From contig PKEB01000018.1 of assembly GCA_002863125.1 (NCBI GenBank), positions 1 to 35,328 of the forward strand: a stretch of DNA of 35,328 bases, in the 5' to 3' direction. Position 1 is the first letter of the stretch; each line of letters starts with the position of its first letter. Positions 21,779-30,010 of the stretch are shown here, in pieces. The stretch comes from Flavobacteriales bacterium (GTDB lineage: Bacteria > Bacteroidota > Bacteroidia > Flavobacteriales_D > Sanyastnellaceae). The position numbers and the translations under genes are program-made. The notes beneath the pieces were generated by a model. The model was not told the origin of the DNA. It made no database searches and worked only from the letters and a program-made list of their open reading frames with translations.

Positions 21779-22792
21779 TCAGTCTTCCTTCTTCTCTTCG
21801 TCGTTGCTTTCTTCTTCAGCTGGAGCTTCCTCAGGAGCTGGGGCTTCCTCGGCTGGTGCTTCTTCAGCGGCGGCCTCAGCAGCAGGAGCCTCCTCAGCTG
21901 GTGCTTCTTCAGTAGCGGCCTCAGCAGCAGGAGCCTCTTCGGCTGGCGCTTCTTCAGCGGCGGCCTCAGGAGCTGGGGCTTCCTCGGCTGGTGCTTTTTC
22001 AGCGGCGGCCTCAGCAGCAGGAGCCTCTTCGGCTGGCGCCTCTTCAGCAGCGGCCTCAGCAGCAGGAGCCTCTTCGGCTGGCGCTTCTTCAGCGGCGGCC
22101 TCAGCAGCTGGAGCCTCTTCGGCTGGCGCTTCTTCAGCGGCGGCCTCAGCAGCTGGAGCCTCTTCGGCTGGCGTTTCTTCAGCAGCGGCCTCAGCGGCAG
22201 GAGCTTCTTCAGCAGCGGCCTCAGCGGCAGGGGCCTCCTCGGCTGCGGCTTCGGCAGCAGGTGCTTCCTCGCCAGCTTCAGCAGCGGCTTCACCGGCGGC
22301 TTCAGCAGCAGCAGCGGCTTCAGCTTCGGCAGCAGCGTTCTCTGCAGCTTGTTGTGCAGCTTCACGAGCCGCGTTCACTTCTTGTTCAGCTTTGAGGCGA
22401 GCAGCCTTCTCTTTGTCGCTGGCGCTGGTCAACGCATCGATCTTCGATTGAACCTTGGCGTTCTTGTCGGCCATCCACTTTTCGAAGCGCTTCTGTGCTT
22501 CTTCCTCCGTGAACGCGCCCTTCTTCACACCATTCAAGAGGTGGTTGTGGTAGACGACGCCTTTGTACTTCATCAACGCGCGAACGGTATCGGACATCTC
22601 CGCACCGACTTGCAGCCAGTACAATGCACGGTCGTGCTTGACTTCGATGGTCGCCGGGTTGGTGTTGGGGTTGTAAGTGCCGACCTTTTCGATGAATCGG
22701 CCATCACGTGGAGCGCGAGCGTCAGCTGCTACTACGTGGTAGAATGGTTTGCCTTTTTTACCGTGGCGTTGGAGTCGCAATCGAGTTGCCAT
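21779..22792 (-). CDS. rpsP: 30S ribosomal protein S16 with long Ala/Glu/Pro repeat tail
   Basis: S16 is a 30S assembly protein, usually about 80-90 residues. Here residues 1-85 are an ordinary S16 (ATRLRLQRHGKKGKPFYHVV, GTYNPN, ALYWLQVGAEMSDTVRALM). About 90-170 is a charged, Ala-rich probable helix. Residues 175-326 are an array of EEAPA/AEAAA blocks with seven full 15-residue units, ending in an acidic tail (ESNDEEKKED). The total is 337 residues. Bacteroidota S16 proteins often have an acidic extension, but this one is very long. The tail is probably disordered and outside the ribosome core. The promoter is clear (TTG-20-TAATTTTG). Because the unit is 45 bp, all other frames are open too and give false genes. 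Confidence 0.95.
   Translation of the reverse strand: MATRLRLQRHGKKGKPFYHVVAADARAPRDGRFIEKVGTYNPNTNPATIEVKHDRALYWLQVGAEMSDTVRALMKYKGVVYHNHLLNGVKKGAFTEEEAQKRFEKWMADKNAKVQSKIDALTSASDKEKAARLKAEQEVNAAREAAQQAAENAAAEAEAAAAAEAAGEAAAEAGEEAPAAEAAAEEAPAAEAAAEEAPAAEAAAEETPAEEAPAAEAAAEEAPAEEAPAAEAAAEEAPAEEAPAAEAAAEEAPAEEAPAAEAAAEKAPAEEAPAPEAAAEEAPAEEAPAAEAATEEAPAEEAPAAEAAAEEAPAEEAPAPEEAPAEEESNDEEKKED
21815..22270 (-). repeat. 45-bp in-frame tandem array in the rpsP tail
   Basis: Three 30-bp units (EEAPAAEAAA) followed by seven full and one partial 45-bp units (EEAPAEEAPAAEAAA with few changes: T207, K266, P275, T294). The near-identical DNA suggests recent expansion by slippage or unequal exchange. Confidence 0.92.
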
Positions 22793-22969: not shown

Positions 22970-23602
22970 ATGCAGATCATCAATGTCATGGGCGCCAGCA
23001 TCGACGGGCGCATTGCTTCCCATCCCAACGAGTCGGATGCGGAACGCAAGCACTATGGCTTTACCAATGAAGCAGACCATGCGCACCTGCGCCGCTTGCT
23101 CGCCACGTGCGATGCGGTGATTGTGGGTGGACACAGCGTGAACGTCAGCGGCGGCGTGATGGAGGTTCAGCGCGAAGATGGCGTGTACCCAACGTGGGTG
23201 CTGTGCTCGAATTCGGGTTTCGCGAGCAATCAACCCATTTGGTCGCAGCCGAATACGCCCAAATGGTTGGTGTCGCGCGAGGCACTGGCAGAGGATCGCT
23301 GCCCCGGTGGCGTGCGCAATTTCGTGTACGGACATGAAGGCGTGGCGAAGGCAGCGGTTGAGGCGTGCCGAGCAGCGGGGTTCGAGCGGGTACTGCTTTT
23401 CGGGGGTGGCATCATCAACCGAGCATTCTATGCAGCGGGTGTTGTGGACGAGTTGATTTTGACGGTCTGCCCGGTGGTGGTGGGGCGCAGCAGCGGGGTG
23501 CCCGTGGTGGCGCCGGAGCTGGATGTTCCCGTTCATTTGGAATTGACCCAAACCGAAACCGAGGGGGACCTGGTCTTCCTCCATTACCTTGTGAAGCGAT
23601 GA
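22970..23602 (+). CDS. RibD C-terminal/dihydrofolate reductase-fold protein
   Basis: A 210-residue single-domain protein started at 22970 (MQIINVMGASIDGRIA). An in-frame ATG 21 nt upstream is less likely. The start (NVMGASIDGRI), CDAVIVGGHSVNVSG, and FERVLLFGGGIINRAFYAAGVVDELILTVCPVVVGR are the NADPH and substrate pattern of the RibD_C/DHFR superfamily. Known members reduce the ribose of pyrimidine intermediates in riboflavin synthesis, or reduce folates and related compounds. There is no deaminase domain, so it is not a full RibD. It is the first of four genes linked by 4-nt ATGA overlaps (to 25636). Substrate unknown; a reduced pterin or pyrimidine is a reasonable guess from its neighbours. 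Confidence 0.87.
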   Translation: MQIINVMGASIDGRIASHPNESDAERKHYGFTNEADHAHLRRLLATCDAVIVGGHSVNVSGGVMEVQREDGVYPTWVLCSNSGFASNQPIWSQPNTPKWLVSREALAEDRCPGGVRNFVYGHEGVAKAAVEACRAAGFERVLLFGGGIINRAFYAAGVVDELILTVCPVVVGRSSGVPVVAPELDVPVHLELTQTETEGDLVFLHYLVKR

Positions 23603-24162
23603 ATGCTAAGCCAACCGCTTTCTTGGAAATCGAACACAAATTCGTGGTGGACACAGGGTTTGACCGCGAAGCATTGTTCGAGGCATGCCGTGCGTTGGAG
23701 CCAGAGCGCGAGAAAGCGCTGACGGTTACGGATACGTATTACGCGCCGCTGGGTCAGGCCAACCGAATCTATCGGCACCGCATCGACAAGGAAATCCAGC
23801 AGCTGACCTTGAAGAGCCGGGGCGGTGACAACGAGGTCCGCACCGAAATCAATTTGGATTTGGGTGCTGCCCGCTCCCAAGCAGACGCGGTGGAGGCGTG
23901 GATGGGCGTCATTGGTGCGCTGCCCGGATACGGCATTGTCAAGGAGATCCGGGTGTTTGATTTCCCCGATTGCGAAGTGGTGTATTACGAAGCCACACAC
24001 AAAGCGTTGCGCGTCTGCTGTGTGGAATTCGAGGCCAAATACGCGGGGAGCGAAGAGGAGGGATTAGCCACCTTGCAGCGCTACGAACGTCGACTTGGAT
24101 TTGACGCCAACGACCGCGAGAAGGTGAATTTGTTTGACTTATTGGTGACGGCACAATCATGA
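23599..24162 (+). CDS. CYTH domain protein (triphosphate tunnel metalloenzyme family)
   Basis: A 187-residue protein, beginning MNAKPT at the ATG that overlaps the previous stop. The CYTH signature ExExK is present as EIEHK (residues 10-14). It is followed by IYRHRIDKEIQQLTLKSRG (the R.R....LT.K strand pair) and EVRTEINLDL (the R.E strand). YYEATHKALRVCCVEFEAKY near the C-terminus fits the later acidic strands. Family members bind metal and a triphosphate in a beta-tunnel and hydrolyse tripolyphosphate or thiamine triphosphate, or act as class IV adenylate cyclases. The gene lies between a reductase and FolB-cupin genes, which suggests a nucleotide-like triphosphate substrate (inference). Strong longer frames that begin upstream at 23365 are only overlap with the previous gene. 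Confidence 0.86.
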   Translation: MNAKPTAFLEIEHKFVVDTGFDREALFEACRALEPEREKALTVTDTYYAPLGQANRIYRHRIDKEIQQLTLKSRGGDNEVRTEINLDLGAARSQADAVEAWMGVIGALPGYGIVKEIRVFDFPDCEVVYYEATHKALRVCCVEFEAKYAGSEEEGLATLQRYERRLGFDANDREKVNLFDLLVTAQS

Positions 24163-24935
24163 ATGCAGCGACGCACGACATCATCGCATTGCAGGACCTG
24201 CGGGTGACCTGCCTGGTGGGCATCCATCCCCACGAGCGCATCACGCCGCAGCCCTTGGTGGTCCAATTGAAGCTCTACTTCGAGCGTAAGCCCGGACATT
24301 TCGGGCGGACGCTGGCAGAGAGTTTGGACTATGGTTTTGTGTGCGGGGACGTGGCGTTCTTGCTGGAAGCGGCGCAATTCCAGTTGCTGGAAACGGCGGT
24401 GGAAGCCATCTGTGCCACCTTGCTCATGACGCCGCCGCCGGACCGCCCGAGCATTCGCCCGGACGCCGTGGAGGTGAGCATCCAAAAGCCTCAGGCCCTC
24501 GGCGGCAAAGCTGTGCCGGTGGTCACGGTGCTGCGGCACGCGGAAGAAATGCAGTACGGCATCGAGCACAACGACTTTGGGCACGTGGACATCCTGCACG
24601 AAAACCAAGACTGCGGGGTGTACTTGCTTCACATCCCGGCCGGTGGTCAAATCCCGGCCCACATCCACAAAGTCATGGGGGAGGCCGAATTGGTCATGTC
24701 GCGTGGGCTGCTGCTCCAAGGCCAGCCTGTTGACGACGGCATTGCCCACCTGTGGCCGCTCGAGTTCGTGCACCAGTACGACAACCCCACCGATACCACC
24801 CGCACGATCTTGTGCGTCAACCGTCCAAAATTCGATCCAGCAGATGAGATCGCTGTTCCGGTGCCTGAAAACTGGCCCGACCCACGTCCGCACCGGAAGC
24901 GCTTTTTCGGATTGGAAACCAACCTCAAGCCATGA
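24159..24935 (+). CDS. Dihydroneopterin aldolase (FolB)-cupin fusion protein
   Basis: A 258-residue two-domain protein. Residues 5-125 are FolB-like: DIIALQDLRVTCLVGIHPHER with E26, QPLVVQLKLY, ESLDYGFV with the conserved Y58, FQLLETAVEAI with E78, and VEVSIQKPQAL with K110. FolB cleaves or epimerises dihydroneopterin in folate synthesis; its Tyr and Lys are kept here, so it may be active. Residues 135-225 are a cupin with the metal motif PAHIHKVMGEAE (H168, H170, and E175 or E177) and a second His, H205. No common folate enzyme carries this cupin as far as I know. Overlaps are 4 nt (ATGA) on both sides. No folK or folP is adjacent, so a non-folate pterin role is possible. Confidence 0.85.
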   Translation: MNAATHDIIALQDLRVTCLVGIHPHERITPQPLVVQLKLYFERKPGHFGRTLAESLDYGFVCGDVAFLLEAAQFQLLETAVEAICATLLMTPPPDRPSIRPDAVEVSIQKPQALGGKAVPVVTVLRHAEEMQYGIEHNDFGHVDILHENQDCGVYLLHIPAGGQIPAHIHKVMGEAELVMSRGLLLQGQPVDDGIAHLWPLEFVHQYDNPTDTTRTILCVNRPKFDPADEIAVPVPENWPDPRPHRKRFFGLETNLKP

Positions 24936-25636
24936 TTGCACGTCCCACCATCCTCATCACCGGCGCCACCAAAGGCATCGGCCGCGCGCTCGTCGAACGC
25001 TTCGCAGCGTCAGCCGGCGAACTGCACCTTGTGGCGCGCAACGCCCGGGACCTCGAATCGCTGCAGAAAAAATTGCAATCGGACGACTGCCGTGTGCACG
25101 TGTACCCAGCGGATTTGAGCAAGCCCGCGGAGGTCACTGCCTTGGTGCACAGCTTGCGCTCGAACATGGATGCACTGCATCTGCTCATCAACAATGCAGG
25201 CGTGTACCTGCCGGGTCAATTGCTCAGCGAACCCGCCGGTAATTTGGATTATATGATGCAGCTTAATGTATTGTCGCACTATGAGTTAGTGCGTGGTTTG
25301 CATGGAAAAATGCCCGTGGGTTCCCACCTCATCCATATGGCCTCTGTCGCCTCGCGCAAGCTCTTCACAGGCAAGCCTTCGTACAGCATCAGCAAGCACG
25401 CCCAGGGTGCCTTGACCGAAGCATTCCGTCACGAACTGCGGCCGCTCGGCATTCGCGTCACCAACGTCATGCCGGGACCCACATGGAGCGCGTCGTGGGA
25501 AGGGGTCGAATTCCCGGAGAACCGACTGCTCGATGCCAAGCACATCGCTGAGGCGGTGTGGCAGGCGTGGCAACTCCCACCTGAAGCGGTGATGGAAGAG
25601 CTCGTGATCCGACCGTTTGAGGGGGACATTGACTGA
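24932..25636 (+). CDS. Short-chain dehydrogenase/reductase (SDR)
   Basis: A 234-residue classical SDR. Cofactor motif TGATKGIG (10-17), NNAG (87-90), the catalytic Ser in HMASVAS (S138 or S141) and Y151-x3-K155 are all present. ARN at about 35-37 after the second strand suggests NADPH. PGPTWSASW lies where the substrate loop should be. SDRs reduce carbonyls, and some reduce pterins (sepiapterin reductase, FolM, PTR1). Sequence alone does not assign this one. It is the last gene of the four-gene coupled set and ends 81 nt before dnaE, with no obvious terminator. Confidence 0.92.
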   Translation: MIARPTILITGATKGIGRALVERFAASAGELHLVARNARDLESLQKKLQSDDCRVHVYPADLSKPAEVTALVHSLRSNMDALHLLINNAGVYLPGQLLSEPAGNLDYMMQLNVLSHYELVRGLHGKMPVGSHLIHMASVASRKLFTGKPSYSISKHAQGALTEAFRHELRPLGIRVTNVMPGPTWSASWEGVEFPENRLLDAKHIAEAVWQAWQLPPEAVMEELVIRPFEGDID

Positions 25637-25717: not shown

Positions 25718-28700
25718 ATGTTTTTGATTTACGATACGGAGACGACGGGCTTGCCGCGGGATTGGAATGCGCCGTTGACGGACAGCGAGAACTGGCCGCG
25801 ATTGGTGCAGTTGGCGTGGCAATTGCACGACGCGCAGGGCAAGCTGATTTCGCGGGGAAACCGCATCGTAAAGCCGGATGGATTCACCATCCCATACACT
25901 TCGGCCAAGATCCACGGCATCACAACGGAACGCGCCGAGAAGGATGGGCACCCGCTCGCGGAGGTGCTGGCCGAATTTGACAAGGATCTCGCCCAGGCGA
26001 CCTACGTCATGGGCCACAACATCGAATTTGACGTCAACATTGTCGGCGCGGAATACCACCGGTTGGCCCAACCCGTCGAAAAGCTGACGGACAAACCGGT
26101 CATCGATTCCAAAAACGAGGCTACGGACTTCTGCGCCATTCCCGGCGGACGCGGTGGCCAATTCAAGTGGCCCACGCTCACCGAGCTCCACCACAAGCTT
26201 TTCAACACGGGATTCGACGAGGCGCACGATGCAGCGTACGACGTGGACGCCACGGCCAAATGCTTTTTCGAGCTGTGCCGCCTGCGCGTCATCCAACGTC
26301 CCGAGATCGAAGATCCGGACGGCATTGTGTACGAGGCGCCCAAGCTCGAGGCTGCAAATTTTGAGGCCGCAGCGCCCCAAGCCGCGCCGACCAAGCCCGC
26401 GCAGAAAGCAGCCAAAGCCCTCAGCGACGACGTCCCGTACATCCACCTGCACGCGCACAGCCAGTTCAGCATTTTGCAGGCGGTCGGCAACGTGGGCGAA
26501 CTCGTGGACACGGCGGTGAGCCACGGCATGAATGCGTTGGCCATCACGGACCACGGCAACATGATGGGGGCGTTCCAGTTCGTCCGGGTGGCCAACAAGG
26601 CCGGCATCAAGGCCATTGTCGGCGCCGAGCTCAACGTTTGCCGCGACCACACCGACCGCAGCGCCAAAGATGACGGCTACCCGACTGTTTTCCTCGCCAA
26701 AAACAAGAACGGCTACCACAAACTCACTAAGCTCAGTTCCAAGGCCTACACCGACGGGTTCTACTATGTACCGCGCATCGACAAGGCCTTGGTCGAGCAA
26801 TTCAAGGAAGACATCATCGTCACCACAGGCGGGCTGTTTGGGGAGATCCCATCGCTCATCTTGAACGTTGGTGAGCAGCAGGCGGAGGAGGCGTTCGTCT
26901 GGTGGAAGGAGACGCTGGGCGAGAACTTTTACGCGGAAATCAACCGTCACGGCCTCGAGGAGGAGAGCGTGGTCAATGAAGTGCTGCTGCGTTTATGCGA
27001 GAAGCACGATGTGAAATGCATCGCGGCCAACAACGCCTATTACCCCAGCAAAAAGCAAGCGGATGCCCACGACATTTTGTTGTGCGTGAAAGACGCGCAA
27101 AACGTGAGCAAGCCCAAGAAGTACATTGGCAAGCGCGGGCGGGAGTTCCGGTTTGGTATGCCCAACGATGAATTTTACCTCAAGTCACCGGCGGAGATGC
27201 GGAAGCTCTTTGCGGATTTACCCAAAGCGCTCGAGACCACCCAAGCAATCGCAGACGCGTGCGAAACCTATGAGTTGGAGCGCGACGTGTTGCTGCCTGC
27301 CTTCGAGATTCCGGACGAATTCGTGCACGCGGAAGACGCAGAGGACGGAGGCAAACGTGGGGAAAACGCCTACCTGCGGCACCTGACCTACGAAGGCGCC
27401 AAAAAGCGCTACCCCGAGATCACCGACGAAATCCGTGAGCGCATCGATTTCGAACTCGAGACCATCGAACGCACCGGCTACCCCGGCTACTTCCTCATTG
27501 TGCAGGACTTTACCACCGCCGCCCGCGAGATGGGCGTGAGCGTGGGACCGGGACGGGGATCGGCCGCTGGTTCAGCTGTGGCTTACTGCGTGGGCATCAC
27601 CAACGTGGACCCGATTGAGTATGATTTGCTGTTTGAGCGTTTCCTGAATCCGGACCGTGTAAGCTTGCCCGATATCGACATTGATTTTGACGATGAGGGG
27701 CGGGGCAAGGTCATCGACTACGTGATCAACAAGTACGGATCGAACCAGGTGGCCCAAATCATTACTTACGGCTCCATGGCCGCCAAGAGCTCCATCCGCG
27801 ACACCGCACGTGTGCTCGAGCTGCCGTTGCCTGATGCCGACCGCATTGCGAAGCTGATGCCGGACATCAGCCTCAAGAAGCTGTTTACGCTCGACGACAA
27901 AACCCTGAAGGAAAAACTCCGTGGCAACGAAGGTCTCCAGCAGGTCAACAACATCAAGGAACTCGCGAAAAAGGCGTCCCTCGAAGGCCAGACGTTGCAG
28001 ACCGCCCGCGTCCTTGAAGGCAGCCTGCGCAACACGGGCATCCACGCCTGCGGCGTCATCATTACACCGACTGACATCACCGACTACGTGCCGGTGGCAG
28101 TCGCCAAGGACAGCGACATGGCGTGCACGCAGTTTGACAACGCCGTTGCCGAAGACGCCGGCCTCCTCAAGATGGACTTCCTGGGCCTGAAAACCCTGAC
28201 CATCATCAAGGACGCGGTGCGCAATGTCAAGGACCGCCACGGCCTCGATCTCGACCCGGACAGCTTCCCGCTCGACGACACCAAGACCTACGAGCTCTTC
28301 CAACGCGGCGAGACCATCGGCATCTTCCAATACGAATCCGCGGGGATGCAGAAGTACCTCAAGGATTTGAAGCCCACGGTGTTCGGTGACCTCATTGCGA
28401 TGAACGCGTTGTACCGCCCAGGGCCGCTCGAATACATCCCGTCGTTTGTCAAGCGGAAGCACGGGCAGGAGCCCATCACGTATGACCTCGACGCGTGTGA
28501 GGAATACCTCGAGGAGACGTACGGTATCACCGTCTACCAGGAGCAGGTAATGCTCCTGTCGCAGAAGTTGGCCGGCTTCACGAAGGGAGAGGCGGATACG
28601 CTGCGGAAGGCGATGGGCAAAAAGAAGGCGGACCTCATTGCCAAAATGAAGCCGCAGTTCCTCGAGAAAGGCGCCGATCGCGGCCACGACACCAAGAAAC

Positions 28701-30010
28701 TGGAGAAGATCTGGAAGGACTGGGAGGCGTTTGCCTCGTATGCCTTCAACAAATCCCACTCCACGTGTTACGCGTGGGTGGCGTACCAAACCGCTTACCT
28801 GAAGGCCAACTACCCGGCCGAATACATGGCGGCGGTGCTGTCCAACAACATGAACGACATCAAGCAAGTGACGCTGTTCATGGAGGAAAGCCGCCACCGG
28901 GGCATCCCGGTCCTCGGCCCGGACGTGAACGAATCGCTTTTCAAATTCCGCGTTAACGCTGAGGGCGCCATCCGGTTTGGGCTCGGGGCGATGCGCGGCG
29001 TAGGCGAGGGGGCGGTCCAATCCGTCATCGACGGCCGCAACGACGGGGCGGGGGCGTATAAGAGCCTCTTTGATTTTGCGCGGCGGGTAAACCCGAAGGA
29101 CGTCAACAAACGCGTCTTCGAGGCGTTGGCGTTGGGCGGAGCCTTCGACGGGTTTGAGGGGCTGCACCGCGCGCAGTTCTTTGCCGAAGACGAGAAGGGC
29201 CGCACCCTCATCGAACTCGCTGTGCGTTACGGTGCCGGTCACCAAGAGGCCGAGTCGTCGGCGCAGGCATCGTTGTTTGGAGGGATGGAAGAAATGGAGA
29301 TGCCAGAACCGGCAATCCCGGTGTGCGAGCCGTGGGACCAGATGGACCTCTTGGCACGGGAGCGCGACGTCATCGGCGTGTACATCTCCGGCCACCCACT
29401 CGACAAATTCCGGTTCGAGATCAAGCACTTGTGTTCGCCCGACGAGGGGCTGGAGGTGCTCAACGAGCCGCTCGCATGGCGTGGACGCGAATTGCGGTTT
29501 GCCGGCCGCGTGGTCGAGGCGCAGCACCGCATTTCCAAAGCGGGTAGGCCGTTCGGGAGTGTAACCATCGAGGACTACCATGCGAGCCAACGCTTCATGC
29601 TGTTCGGTGACGATTACCTCAAGTTCAAGGACTACGTGGTCGAAGGGTGGTTCGTGTTTGTGCGCGGCTCGGTGGAGCAACGCCGCTTCCGGGACGACCC
29701 CAACAACGTCGAATTCAAGGTGCGGCACATTGAGTTGCTGGCGGACGTGCGCGAAAAGTGGGTCTCACGGCTGCGGTTGCAGTTGGACTTGCAGGCGCTG
29801 GACGAGGAGCGTCTCGATCGCATTGGTCAGATGATCGAAGGCAGTCCGGGATCGGTCGGCCTTACGATTGAGGTACACGACCAGGGCATGGCACTGGAGA
29901 TGCCGAGCCGGTCGCACAAGGTGACGCTGAGCGATGATTTTGTCGACCAGCTCGAGGAACTCGTCAATGGGGGTGGCCTGCACTACCGCTTAGAAACGAG
30001 CAAGCAGTAA
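25718..30010 (+). CDS. dnaE: DNA polymerase III alpha subunit with fused N-terminal 3'-5' exonuclease
   Basis: A 1430-residue replicative polymerase. Residues 1-195 are a DEDDh exonuclease (DnaQ-like): D6 and E8 in YDTETTG, HNIEFD, and HDAAYDVDAT with the catalytic His and last Asp. A ~45-residue Ala/Pro/Lys linker leads to the PHP domain from about residue 240 (IHLHAHSQFSILQAV, AITDHGNMMGAF). The polymerase core has GPGRGSAAGSAVAYC and catalytic LPDIDIDF at about 650-657. Later come AFNKSHSTCYAWVAYQTAYLK, tandem HhH and an OB fold (LRFAGRVVEAQHRIS...GRPFGSVTIED). So proofreading and polymerisation are in one chain, a known trait of Bacteroidota DnaE. The start codon ATG 25718 opens directly on the exonuclease domain. 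Confidence 0.96.
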   Translation: MFLIYDTETTGLPRDWNAPLTDSENWPRLVQLAWQLHDAQGKLISRGNRIVKPDGFTIPYTSAKIHGITTERAEKDGHPLAEVLAEFDKDLAQATYVMGHNIEFDVNIVGAEYHRLAQPVEKLTDKPVIDSKNEATDFCAIPGGRGGQFKWPTLTELHHKLFNTGFDEAHDAAYDVDATAKCFFELCRLRVIQRPEIEDPDGIVYEAPKLEAANFEAAAPQAAPTKPAQKAAKALSDDVPYIHLHAHSQFSILQAVGNVGELVDTAVSHGMNALAITDHGNMMGAFQFVRVANKAGIKAIVGAELNVCRDHTDRSAKDDGYPTVFLAKNKNGYHKLTKLSSKAYTDGFYYVPRIDKALVEQFKEDIIVTTGGLFGEIPSLILNVGEQQAEEAFVWWKETLGENFYAEINRHGLEEESVVNEVLLRLCEKHDVKCIAANNAYYPSKKQADAHDILLCVKDAQNVSKPKKYIGKRGREFRFGMPNDEFYLKSPAEMRKLFADLPKALETTQAIADACETYELERDVLLPAFEIPDEFVHAEDAEDGGKRGENAYLRHLTYEGAKKRYPEITDEIRERIDFELETIERTGYPGYFLIVQDFTTAAREMGVSVGPGRGSAAGSAVAYCVGITNVDPIEYDLLFERFLNPDRVSLPDIDIDFDDEGRGKVIDYVINKYGSNQVAQIITYGSMAAKSSIRDTARVLELPLPDADRIAKLMPDISLKKLFTLDDKTLKEKLRGNEGLQQVNNIKELAKKASLEGQTLQTARVLEGSLRNTGIHACGVIITPTDITDYVPVAVAKDSDMACTQFDNAVAEDAGLLKMDFLGLKTLTIIKDAVRNVKDRHGLDLDPDSFPLDDTKTYELFQRGETIGIFQYESAGMQKYLKDLKPTVFGDLIAMNALYRPGPLEYIPSFVKRKHGQEPITYDLDACEEYLEETYGITVYQEQVMLLSQKLAGFTKGEADTLRKAMGKKKADLIAKMKPQFLEKGADRGHDTKKLEKIWKDWEAFASYAFNKSHSTCYAWVAYQTAYLKANYPAEYMAAVLSNNMNDIKQVTLFMEESRHRGIPVLGPDVNESLFKFRVNAEGAIRFGLGAMRGVGEGAVQSVIDGRNDGAGAYKSLFDFARRVNPKDVNKRVFEALALGGAFDGFEGLHRAQFFAEDEKGRTLIELAVRYGAGHQEAESSAQASLFGGMEEMEMPEPAIPVCEPWDQMDLLARERDVIGVYISGHPLDKFRFEIKHLCSPDEGLEVLNEPLAWRGRELRFAGRVVEAQHRISKAGRPFGSVTIEDYHASQRFMLFGDDYLKFKDYVVEGWFVFVRGSVEQRRFRDDPNNVEFKVRHIELLADVREKWVSRLRLQLDLQALDEERLDRIGQMIEGSPGSVGLTIEVHDQGMALEMPSRSHKVTLSDDFVDQLEELVNGGGLHYRLETSKQ

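Follow-up and report, generated by a model that had tools for sequence, protein, structure and literature searches.

The window analysed here, a stretch of 35,328 bp (positions 1 to 35,328 of contig PKEB01000018.1, assembly GCA_002863125.1) from a member of the Flavobacteriales whose genome is referred to below as G000, carries a block of four genes encoding a RibD_C-fold reductase, a CYTH-type triphosphate tunnel metalloenzyme (TTM), a fusion of FolB (dihydroneopterin aldolase) with a cupin, and a short-chain dehydrogenase (SDR). We give about even chances to the reading that this block is the form taken in this lineage by the pterin branch of folate synthesis: the CYTH protein would act as hydrolase of 7,8-dihydroneopterin triphosphate (DHNTP), the FolB-cupin fusion as aldolase, and the cupin and the reductases on the products. 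A new form of this branch is suggested because the folate genes are found elsewhere in the genome, because the fusion is the only FolB found, and because members of the family that lack the block mostly carry an ordinary FolB. In some marine Bacteroidota the fusion takes the place of an ordinary FolB and is encoded next to a predicted triphosphatase of tunnel fold and two reductases; what may be new is a pterin branch of folate synthesis whose aldolase is a fusion and for whose hydrolase a novel candidate is at hand.

The four open reading frames (ORFs) of the block are located on the plus strand, and each consecutive pair shares four bases (ATGA; coordinates in Table 1), as had been described in an earlier note made from the sequence alone. 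The ratio of nonsynonymous to synonymous substitutions (dN/dS) lies between 0.025 and 0.13 in 12 of the 16 comparisons (four block genes against four relatives), the other four being uncomputable through saturation of synonymous sites, so the four genes are constrained by purifying selection. The protein families named in the earlier note were recovered throughout: RibD_C with 66.9 bits against a Pfam cut-off of 24.1 (the sole Pfam family matched by this protein), FolB with 69.5 bits against a gathering threshold of 31.8 (residues 9-117), and the SDR as adh_short with 125.9 bits. Its CYTH call was right as well, since the AlphaFold model of this protein (pLDDT 87) matches PH1012 (2dc4) with a Z score of 19.8 (root-mean-square deviation 2.0, 161 residues aligned) and the ExExK motif is invariant, and the fusion it had proposed is recovered in a structure model (mean pLDDT 74) that matches dihydroneopterin aldolase (DHNA) with Z 15.8 and, by its cupin half, the manganese cupin TM1459 with Z 11.2.

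The note had further remarked that folK and folP are absent, which is true of the window and not of the genome: G000 (98.7% complete) encodes FolK on contig C4, a FolP-length match on C2 and DHFR on C22, and because these genes lie elsewhere, the note's suggestion of an unknown cofactor path, drawn from their absence, falls. The note had also regarded a separate folate set, with this FolB as the only housekeeping copy, as speaking against its proposal; this is the situation encountered, with the fusion being the sole FolB (PF02152) match in G000. FolK is present in all six block-bearing genomes of the family and DHFR in five of them, G013 (79% complete) being the one where it was not seen. A FolP-length match was found in nine of the ten genomes checked; in the tenth, G057, the only Pterin_bind match sits in a 919-residue frame.

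The FolB half of the fusion exceeds the cut-off of the broader NCBIfam domain model TIGR00526 (46.4 against 45.05 bits), and it is diverged, since in one and the same genome search the fusion scores 71.5 bits and the unfused FolB proteins of the family 84-116 bits (the fragment in G051 left out). Residues E26, Y58, E78 and K110, aligned to E. coli FolB, are invariant in 15 of 15 fusions; the two glutamates (E26 and E78) are presumably catalytic. The titles of PDB entries 7su4 and 7su6 mention Tyr53 and Lys98. Judged from these residues, the active site is intact in the fusion and aldolase activity is predicted. In the cupin half H168, H170, E175 and H205 are likewise invariant (15/15), a His-x-His, Glu, His pattern that we take to be the metal-ligand motif of metal-type cupins; the cupin half of the window copy has no Pfam match, and a weak Cupin_2 match is obtained for two of eight members (best E 0.011). 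A mobile or viral origin of the fusion was considered and rejected: none of 62 pattern matches in IMG/VR viral contigs was confirmed, and the PLSDB plasmids gave no match.

The window copy of the CYTH protein matches no Pfam or NCBIfam family, and a PDB sequence search with this protein returned no usable match to solved members. Pfam CYTH is matched by one of eight aligned members (window copy excluded; E 2e-7). The assignment is carried by the predicted fold, which besides PH1012 resembles SaTTM (Z 18.0), and by twelve residues conserved without exception in the 14 sequences aligned (E10, E12, K14, R59, R61, K72, R81, E83, K115, E126, E143 and E145), among which the ExExK, RxR and ExE residues of tunnel metalloenzymes are all kept. 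The same fold would also accommodate a class IV adenylyl cyclase (3n0z, Z 17.5) or a thiamine triphosphatase (mouse enzyme 5a64, Z 15.2), functions that the motif rules given for the CYTH family in PMC8233210 separate from triphosphatases. The HF motif ahead of ExExK is absent, the first arginine of RxR and the second glutamate of ExE are kept, and the thiamine-stacking Trp/Tyr position, two residues before RxR, is Ile or Val, each in 14 of 14 sequences; the cyclase was rejected on these motifs, and the two functions together are highly improbable. From its fold and its ExExK, RxR and ExE residues the protein is predicted to be a triphosphatase rather than a cyclase, and fold, motifs and linkage make it a candidate DHNTP phosphohydrolase (the "missing folQ"), with action on a pterin as the supposed activity.

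FolE converts GTP into dihydroneopterin triphosphate. In the proposed path the CYTH protein would then remove phosphate from DHNTP, filling the folQ role; if it worked like SaTTM, the terminal phosphate would go first and a diphosphate would remain, so the protein may need to act repeatedly or with a partner. The FolB half would convert dihydroneopterin into 6-hydroxymethyl-7,8-dihydropterin and glycolaldehyde, the pterin passing on to FolK and FolP, and the cupin half might act on or sense either the pterin product or the released glycolaldehyde. The RibD_C protein and the SDR would be NAD(P)H-dependent reductases, maintaining pterins in the reduced state or clearing the by-product. What the cupin and the two reductases do in this scheme, and which substrate the CYTH protein uses, is inferred.

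The distribution of the block was scrutinized in samples of 61 genomes of the family, 399 of the order and 395 of the phylum, with profile searches scoring the candidates retained by a loose first look. Ordinary FolB proteins score weakly with the fusion profile (22.8 bits being the highest score at 30 loci of the family), and because of this and of the loose first look, absence of the fusion outside close relatives is weak evidence. Within the family, FolB of any kind was found in 53 genomes: six carry the fusion and show no second FolB, and 47 carry an unfused FolB (in G051 as a fragment below the cut-off); the other eight have none. The order sample contains the fusion in 18 genomes, comprising 17 of the 22 listed congeners and G013 from another genus; the block is thus narrowly distributed, in 2 of the 70 genera sampled. 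CYTH occurs in 17 of the 399 genomes, the same set with the exception of G172, and the mismatch is explained by the contig of G172 starting inside the FolB-cupin gene. The RibD_C profile, searched across the family, was positive in seven of the 61 genomes, namely the six block genomes and, weakly, G034.

Gene order was compared at 18 loci from 17 of the 18 fusion-bearing order genomes (two loci in G203; G272 left out). All four block genes, complete or truncated where a contig stops, are present at 16 loci, and the remaining pair (L073 and L079) runs into a contig edge; the fusion is located beside the CYTH and RibD_C genes wherever the contig is long enough, and no foreign gene interrupts the block at any of the 18 loci. 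Other genes are inserted on either flank in some relatives. The overlap between the RibD_C and CYTH genes is kept at 15 of the 17 loci holding both. A protein with the start of the rpsP product adjoins or is near the block in 10 of 16 loci compared (in this count the window's own copy is masked by another ORF), and the dnaE cluster is present in 14 of 16, window included. The bin G203 holds two diverged block copies, L073 and L074, and is probably mixed, because the fusion of L074 is identical over the shared stretch to that of L079 from G172.

The block's site between rpsP and dnaE being conserved, synteny within the genus is modest evidence taken alone. On a rival reading, the CYTH protein would hydrolyse inorganic triphosphate in general, RibD_C and SDR would catalyse unrelated reactions, shared expression would keep the operon together, and only the fusion would be related to pterins. 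SaTTM does prefer inorganic triphosphate (PMC8233210), RibD_C proteins and SDRs are broad families, the RibD_C and CYTH proteins reach no NCBIfam cut-off, nor does the SDR among the best 25 of its 231 matches, and synteny in one genus at one locus says little about function. However, the order sample has the CYTH and FolB-cupin genes together in two genera, and at 30 loci of relatives with an ordinary FolB neither CYTH, RibD_C nor a block-type SDR was found up to about 1.5 kb away (the best 30 of 53 listed matches, some shortened by contig ends). Recurrence of the genes in a distant family, where they are separated by gaps and neither DnaE nor S16 is nearby, is hard to explain without a functional tie, and we regard the general triphosphatase with unrelated neighbours as improbable.

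That recurrence was found in the phylum sample, where the full-length fusion is present, besides G000, in G619 (316 bits) and G780 (308 bits), both from one distant family. RibD_C (232 and 243 bits), CYTH (200 and 196 bits) and FolB-cupin genes are arranged there in the same order and strand and are spaced by 47-207 bases, and no DnaE or S16 match occurs in the 20 kb around this core. With Pfam CYTH, the copy at the G619 locus (L109) reaches 19.2 bits against a gathering threshold of 23.2, and that at the G780 locus (L110) gives no match. An SDR is located upstream of the core at both loci and is of a different type from that of the window: the best curated match of the G619 protein is a subfamily named glucose 1-dehydrogenase, with structure matches of the FabG/alcohol dehydrogenase kind. 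The core therefore consists of three genes, with the SDR as an associated and possibly exchangeable partner that, in its window type, was added to the core in the family of G000. In G780, an ORF with a weak Transposase_31 match (L110 12040-12891, minus strand), not seen in G619, lies between the SDR and RibD_C genes, and an alpha/beta hydrolase adjoins the upstream SDR at both loci (L109 12810-13874 and L110 13753-14931, both minus strand; Pfam check done for L109). A weak FolB match in G519 (E 7.2e-7) has no block around it.

Identities to the window proteins are 45 and 43% for CYTH, 51 and 49% for FolB-cupin and 48 and 50% for RibD_C in the distant pair, and 37%, 52% and 52%, respectively, in G013 of the same family. 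Transfer between lineages would be consistent with the similarity of these values and is not shown by the trees of the three core proteins, in which L109 and L110 take a poorly supported position within the genus or close to it. A stronger claim, to which we give only tentative credence, is that RibD_C, CYTH and FolB-cupin form a self-contained module leading from DHNTP to 6-hydroxymethyl-dihydropterin, with the TTM as a dedicated hydrolase and the cupin adding a new chemical step on the pterin or on glycolaldehyde. This module would have displaced the ordinary FolB, and distant Bacteroidota may have exchanged it.

For the RibD_C protein the best solved structure by profile is 6p8c, a diaminopyrimidine-phosphate reductase (E 1.3e-9), and its scores remain below the NCBIfam cut-offs (ribD_Cterm, 51 against 150.15 bits; rib_reduct_arch, 39.7 against 186.45 bits). 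A function in riboflavin synthesis is unlikely, since G000 has a second, separate RibD_C match in a 380-aa, RibD-length frame on contig C2; such a second match scores above the cut-off in eight of nine block-bearing genomes checked, G215 having a weak match only. Replacement of a missing DHFR was likewise rejected, a canonical DHFR being encoded in G000.

The nearest solved structure to the SDR is the sepiapterin reductase of Chlorobium tepidum (2bd0), matched over the full length with E 1.8e-27 (3.3e-40 by profile), and this would fit a tetrahydropterin cofactor branch, in which an SDR of sepiapterin-reductase type and RibD_C as a pterin reductase would make a tetrahydrobiopterin-like cofactor from DHNTP, with FolB and CYTH governing how much goes to folate and how much to the cofactor. 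The substrate-binding residues of the Chlorobium enzyme are Trp-196 and Phe-99 (PMC7520308); the former corresponds to W189, invariant in seven of seven block SDRs, and the latter aligns with a proline (P94), and the tryptophan is not diagnostic because it also aligns in another SDR, 4bmv. The block SDR reads TGATKGIG (G15 and G17 invariant in 7/7), without the TGX3RXG motif of the FolM/PTR1 pteridine reductases (PMC1971073). In all three congeners examined (G057, G024 and G004) FolE adjoins, away from the block, a PTPS homologue with the C-x5-HGH motif of PTPS-II (PMC5041015), which would suit a cofactor branch; however, the FolE-PTPS pair, motif included, is also found in G042 and G011, which lack the fusion in the family search. 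Loci L047 and L048, from other genera, carry a PTPS homologue beside FolE. The SDR is moreover outside the core in G619 and G780, and the fusion, as the sole FolB found, most likely serves folate. The cofactor branch is on balance rather unlikely.

Of the single pterin path proposed in the earlier note, the view that the genes look like one module is supported by co-occurrence, the distant core, the FolB site and the CYTH motifs; the DHFR and RibD-length genes elsewhere and an SDR without TGX3RXG speak against the reductases acting as it had proposed. The gene-neighbourhood comparison it had recommended brings RibD_C, CYTH and FolB-cupin together in both the order and the distant family and leaves the block-type SDR outside the distant core.

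Several observations weigh against the block being the lineage's folate pterin branch. Besides the FolE-PTPS pairs away from the block, no FolE turned up in G000 and G049, although four congeners (G004, G024, G039 and G057) have it; in G000 both a gap and a real loss are possible. Five of the 22 listed congeners lack the fusion (completeness 95, 86, 87, 79 and 64%, so that gaps may explain some), and in G049, a congener that is 95% complete, FolB of any kind is missing. The FolB half reaches 35.9 bits with the NCBIfam equivalog TIGR00525, below its cut-off of 72.15 bits, and vertical inheritance of the one conserved site between rpsP and dnaE explains much of the synteny within the genus.

Both neighbours of the block in the window are considered to be outside the module (Table 1). 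The rpsP product comprises 337 aa, its second half being an Ala/Glu/Pro-rich repeat tail, and its total length differs from one relative to another, with 273 aa in L071 and 230 aa in L012. The dnaE product, of 1430 aa, has an exonuclease-like stretch at its start (MFLIYDTETTGLPR), as judged by eye from the translation.

Table 1. Coordinates of the block genes and their neighbours in the window, and of the PTPS homologues at three loci of congeners.
Feature	Coordinates	Strand	Basis
RibD_C-fold NAD(P)H reductase, 210 aa, no deaminase domain	22970..23602	+	Pfam RibD_C; profile match 6p8c
CYTH / triphosphate tunnel metalloenzyme, 187 aa, predicted triphosphatase	23599..24162	+	AlphaFold model fold match; invariant motifs
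FolB-cupin fusion, 258 aa; FolB ~residues 6-128, metal-type cupin ~134-225	24159..24935	+	Pfam FolB; model fold matches
Short-chain dehydrogenase (SDR), 234 aa, TGxxxGIG and YxxxK	24932..25636	+	Pfam adh_short; best structure 2bd0
rpsP, divergent upstream neighbour	21779..22792	-	named by eye from translation
dnaE, downstream neighbour	25718..30010	+	named by eye from translation
PTPS homologue with C-x5-HGH, directly beside FolE (three congeners)	L112 5003-5422; L113 5107-5526; L114 5256-5675	-	motif

We know of no earlier pterin role for the CYTH superfamily. A search of the open-access literature by title gave no TTM or CYTH protein acting on pterins, the one match for CYTH domain and folate being a biofilm proteomics paper, and no fusion of dihydroneopterin aldolase with a cupin; a Helicobacter paper matched by triphosphatase and dihydroneopterin (PMC3688963) concerns a GTP cyclohydrolase and is unrelated. 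According to PMC8233210, what CYTH proteins do physiologically is for the most part elusive. The enzyme that dephosphorylates DHNTP was unassigned in most bacteria in a 2007 survey, where the pyrophosphatase gene is given as "still missing in most genomes" (PMC1971073). A linked triphosphatase of unrelated fold is a concrete, testable candidate for this step. In E. coli the step has since been given to NudB.

Compared with known systems, the fusion resembles FolB in its fold, Pfam family and catalytic residues, and as the only FolB found in its genome, and differs by the cupin fused to its C-terminus. The combination of a FolB-fold protein and an SDR is reminiscent of FolX and FolM in tetrahydromonapterin synthesis (PMC5041015), whereas the FolB half of the block scores higher with the NCBIfam model for FolB than with that for FolX (35.9 against 25.8 bits), and the SDR reads TGxxxGIG instead of TGX3RXG (PMC1971073). 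The SDR has the Chlorobium tepidum sepiapterin reductase as its nearest solved structure over the full length and keeps the Trp-196 position, and departs from it by the proline at the Phe-99 position. The CYTH protein has the predicted tunnel fold and the ExExK, RxR and ExE residues in common with the TTM triphosphatases SaTTM and PH1012, and is set apart from them by its linkage to a pterin gene and by the lack of a usable sequence match to solved members. Its proposed position in the pathway, next to FolB, is that of FolQ, the Nudix DHNTP pyrophosphatase of Lactococcus and plants (PMC1971073); in contrast to FolQ, the block protein is predicted to adopt a TTM tunnel fold and is a candidate for this activity.

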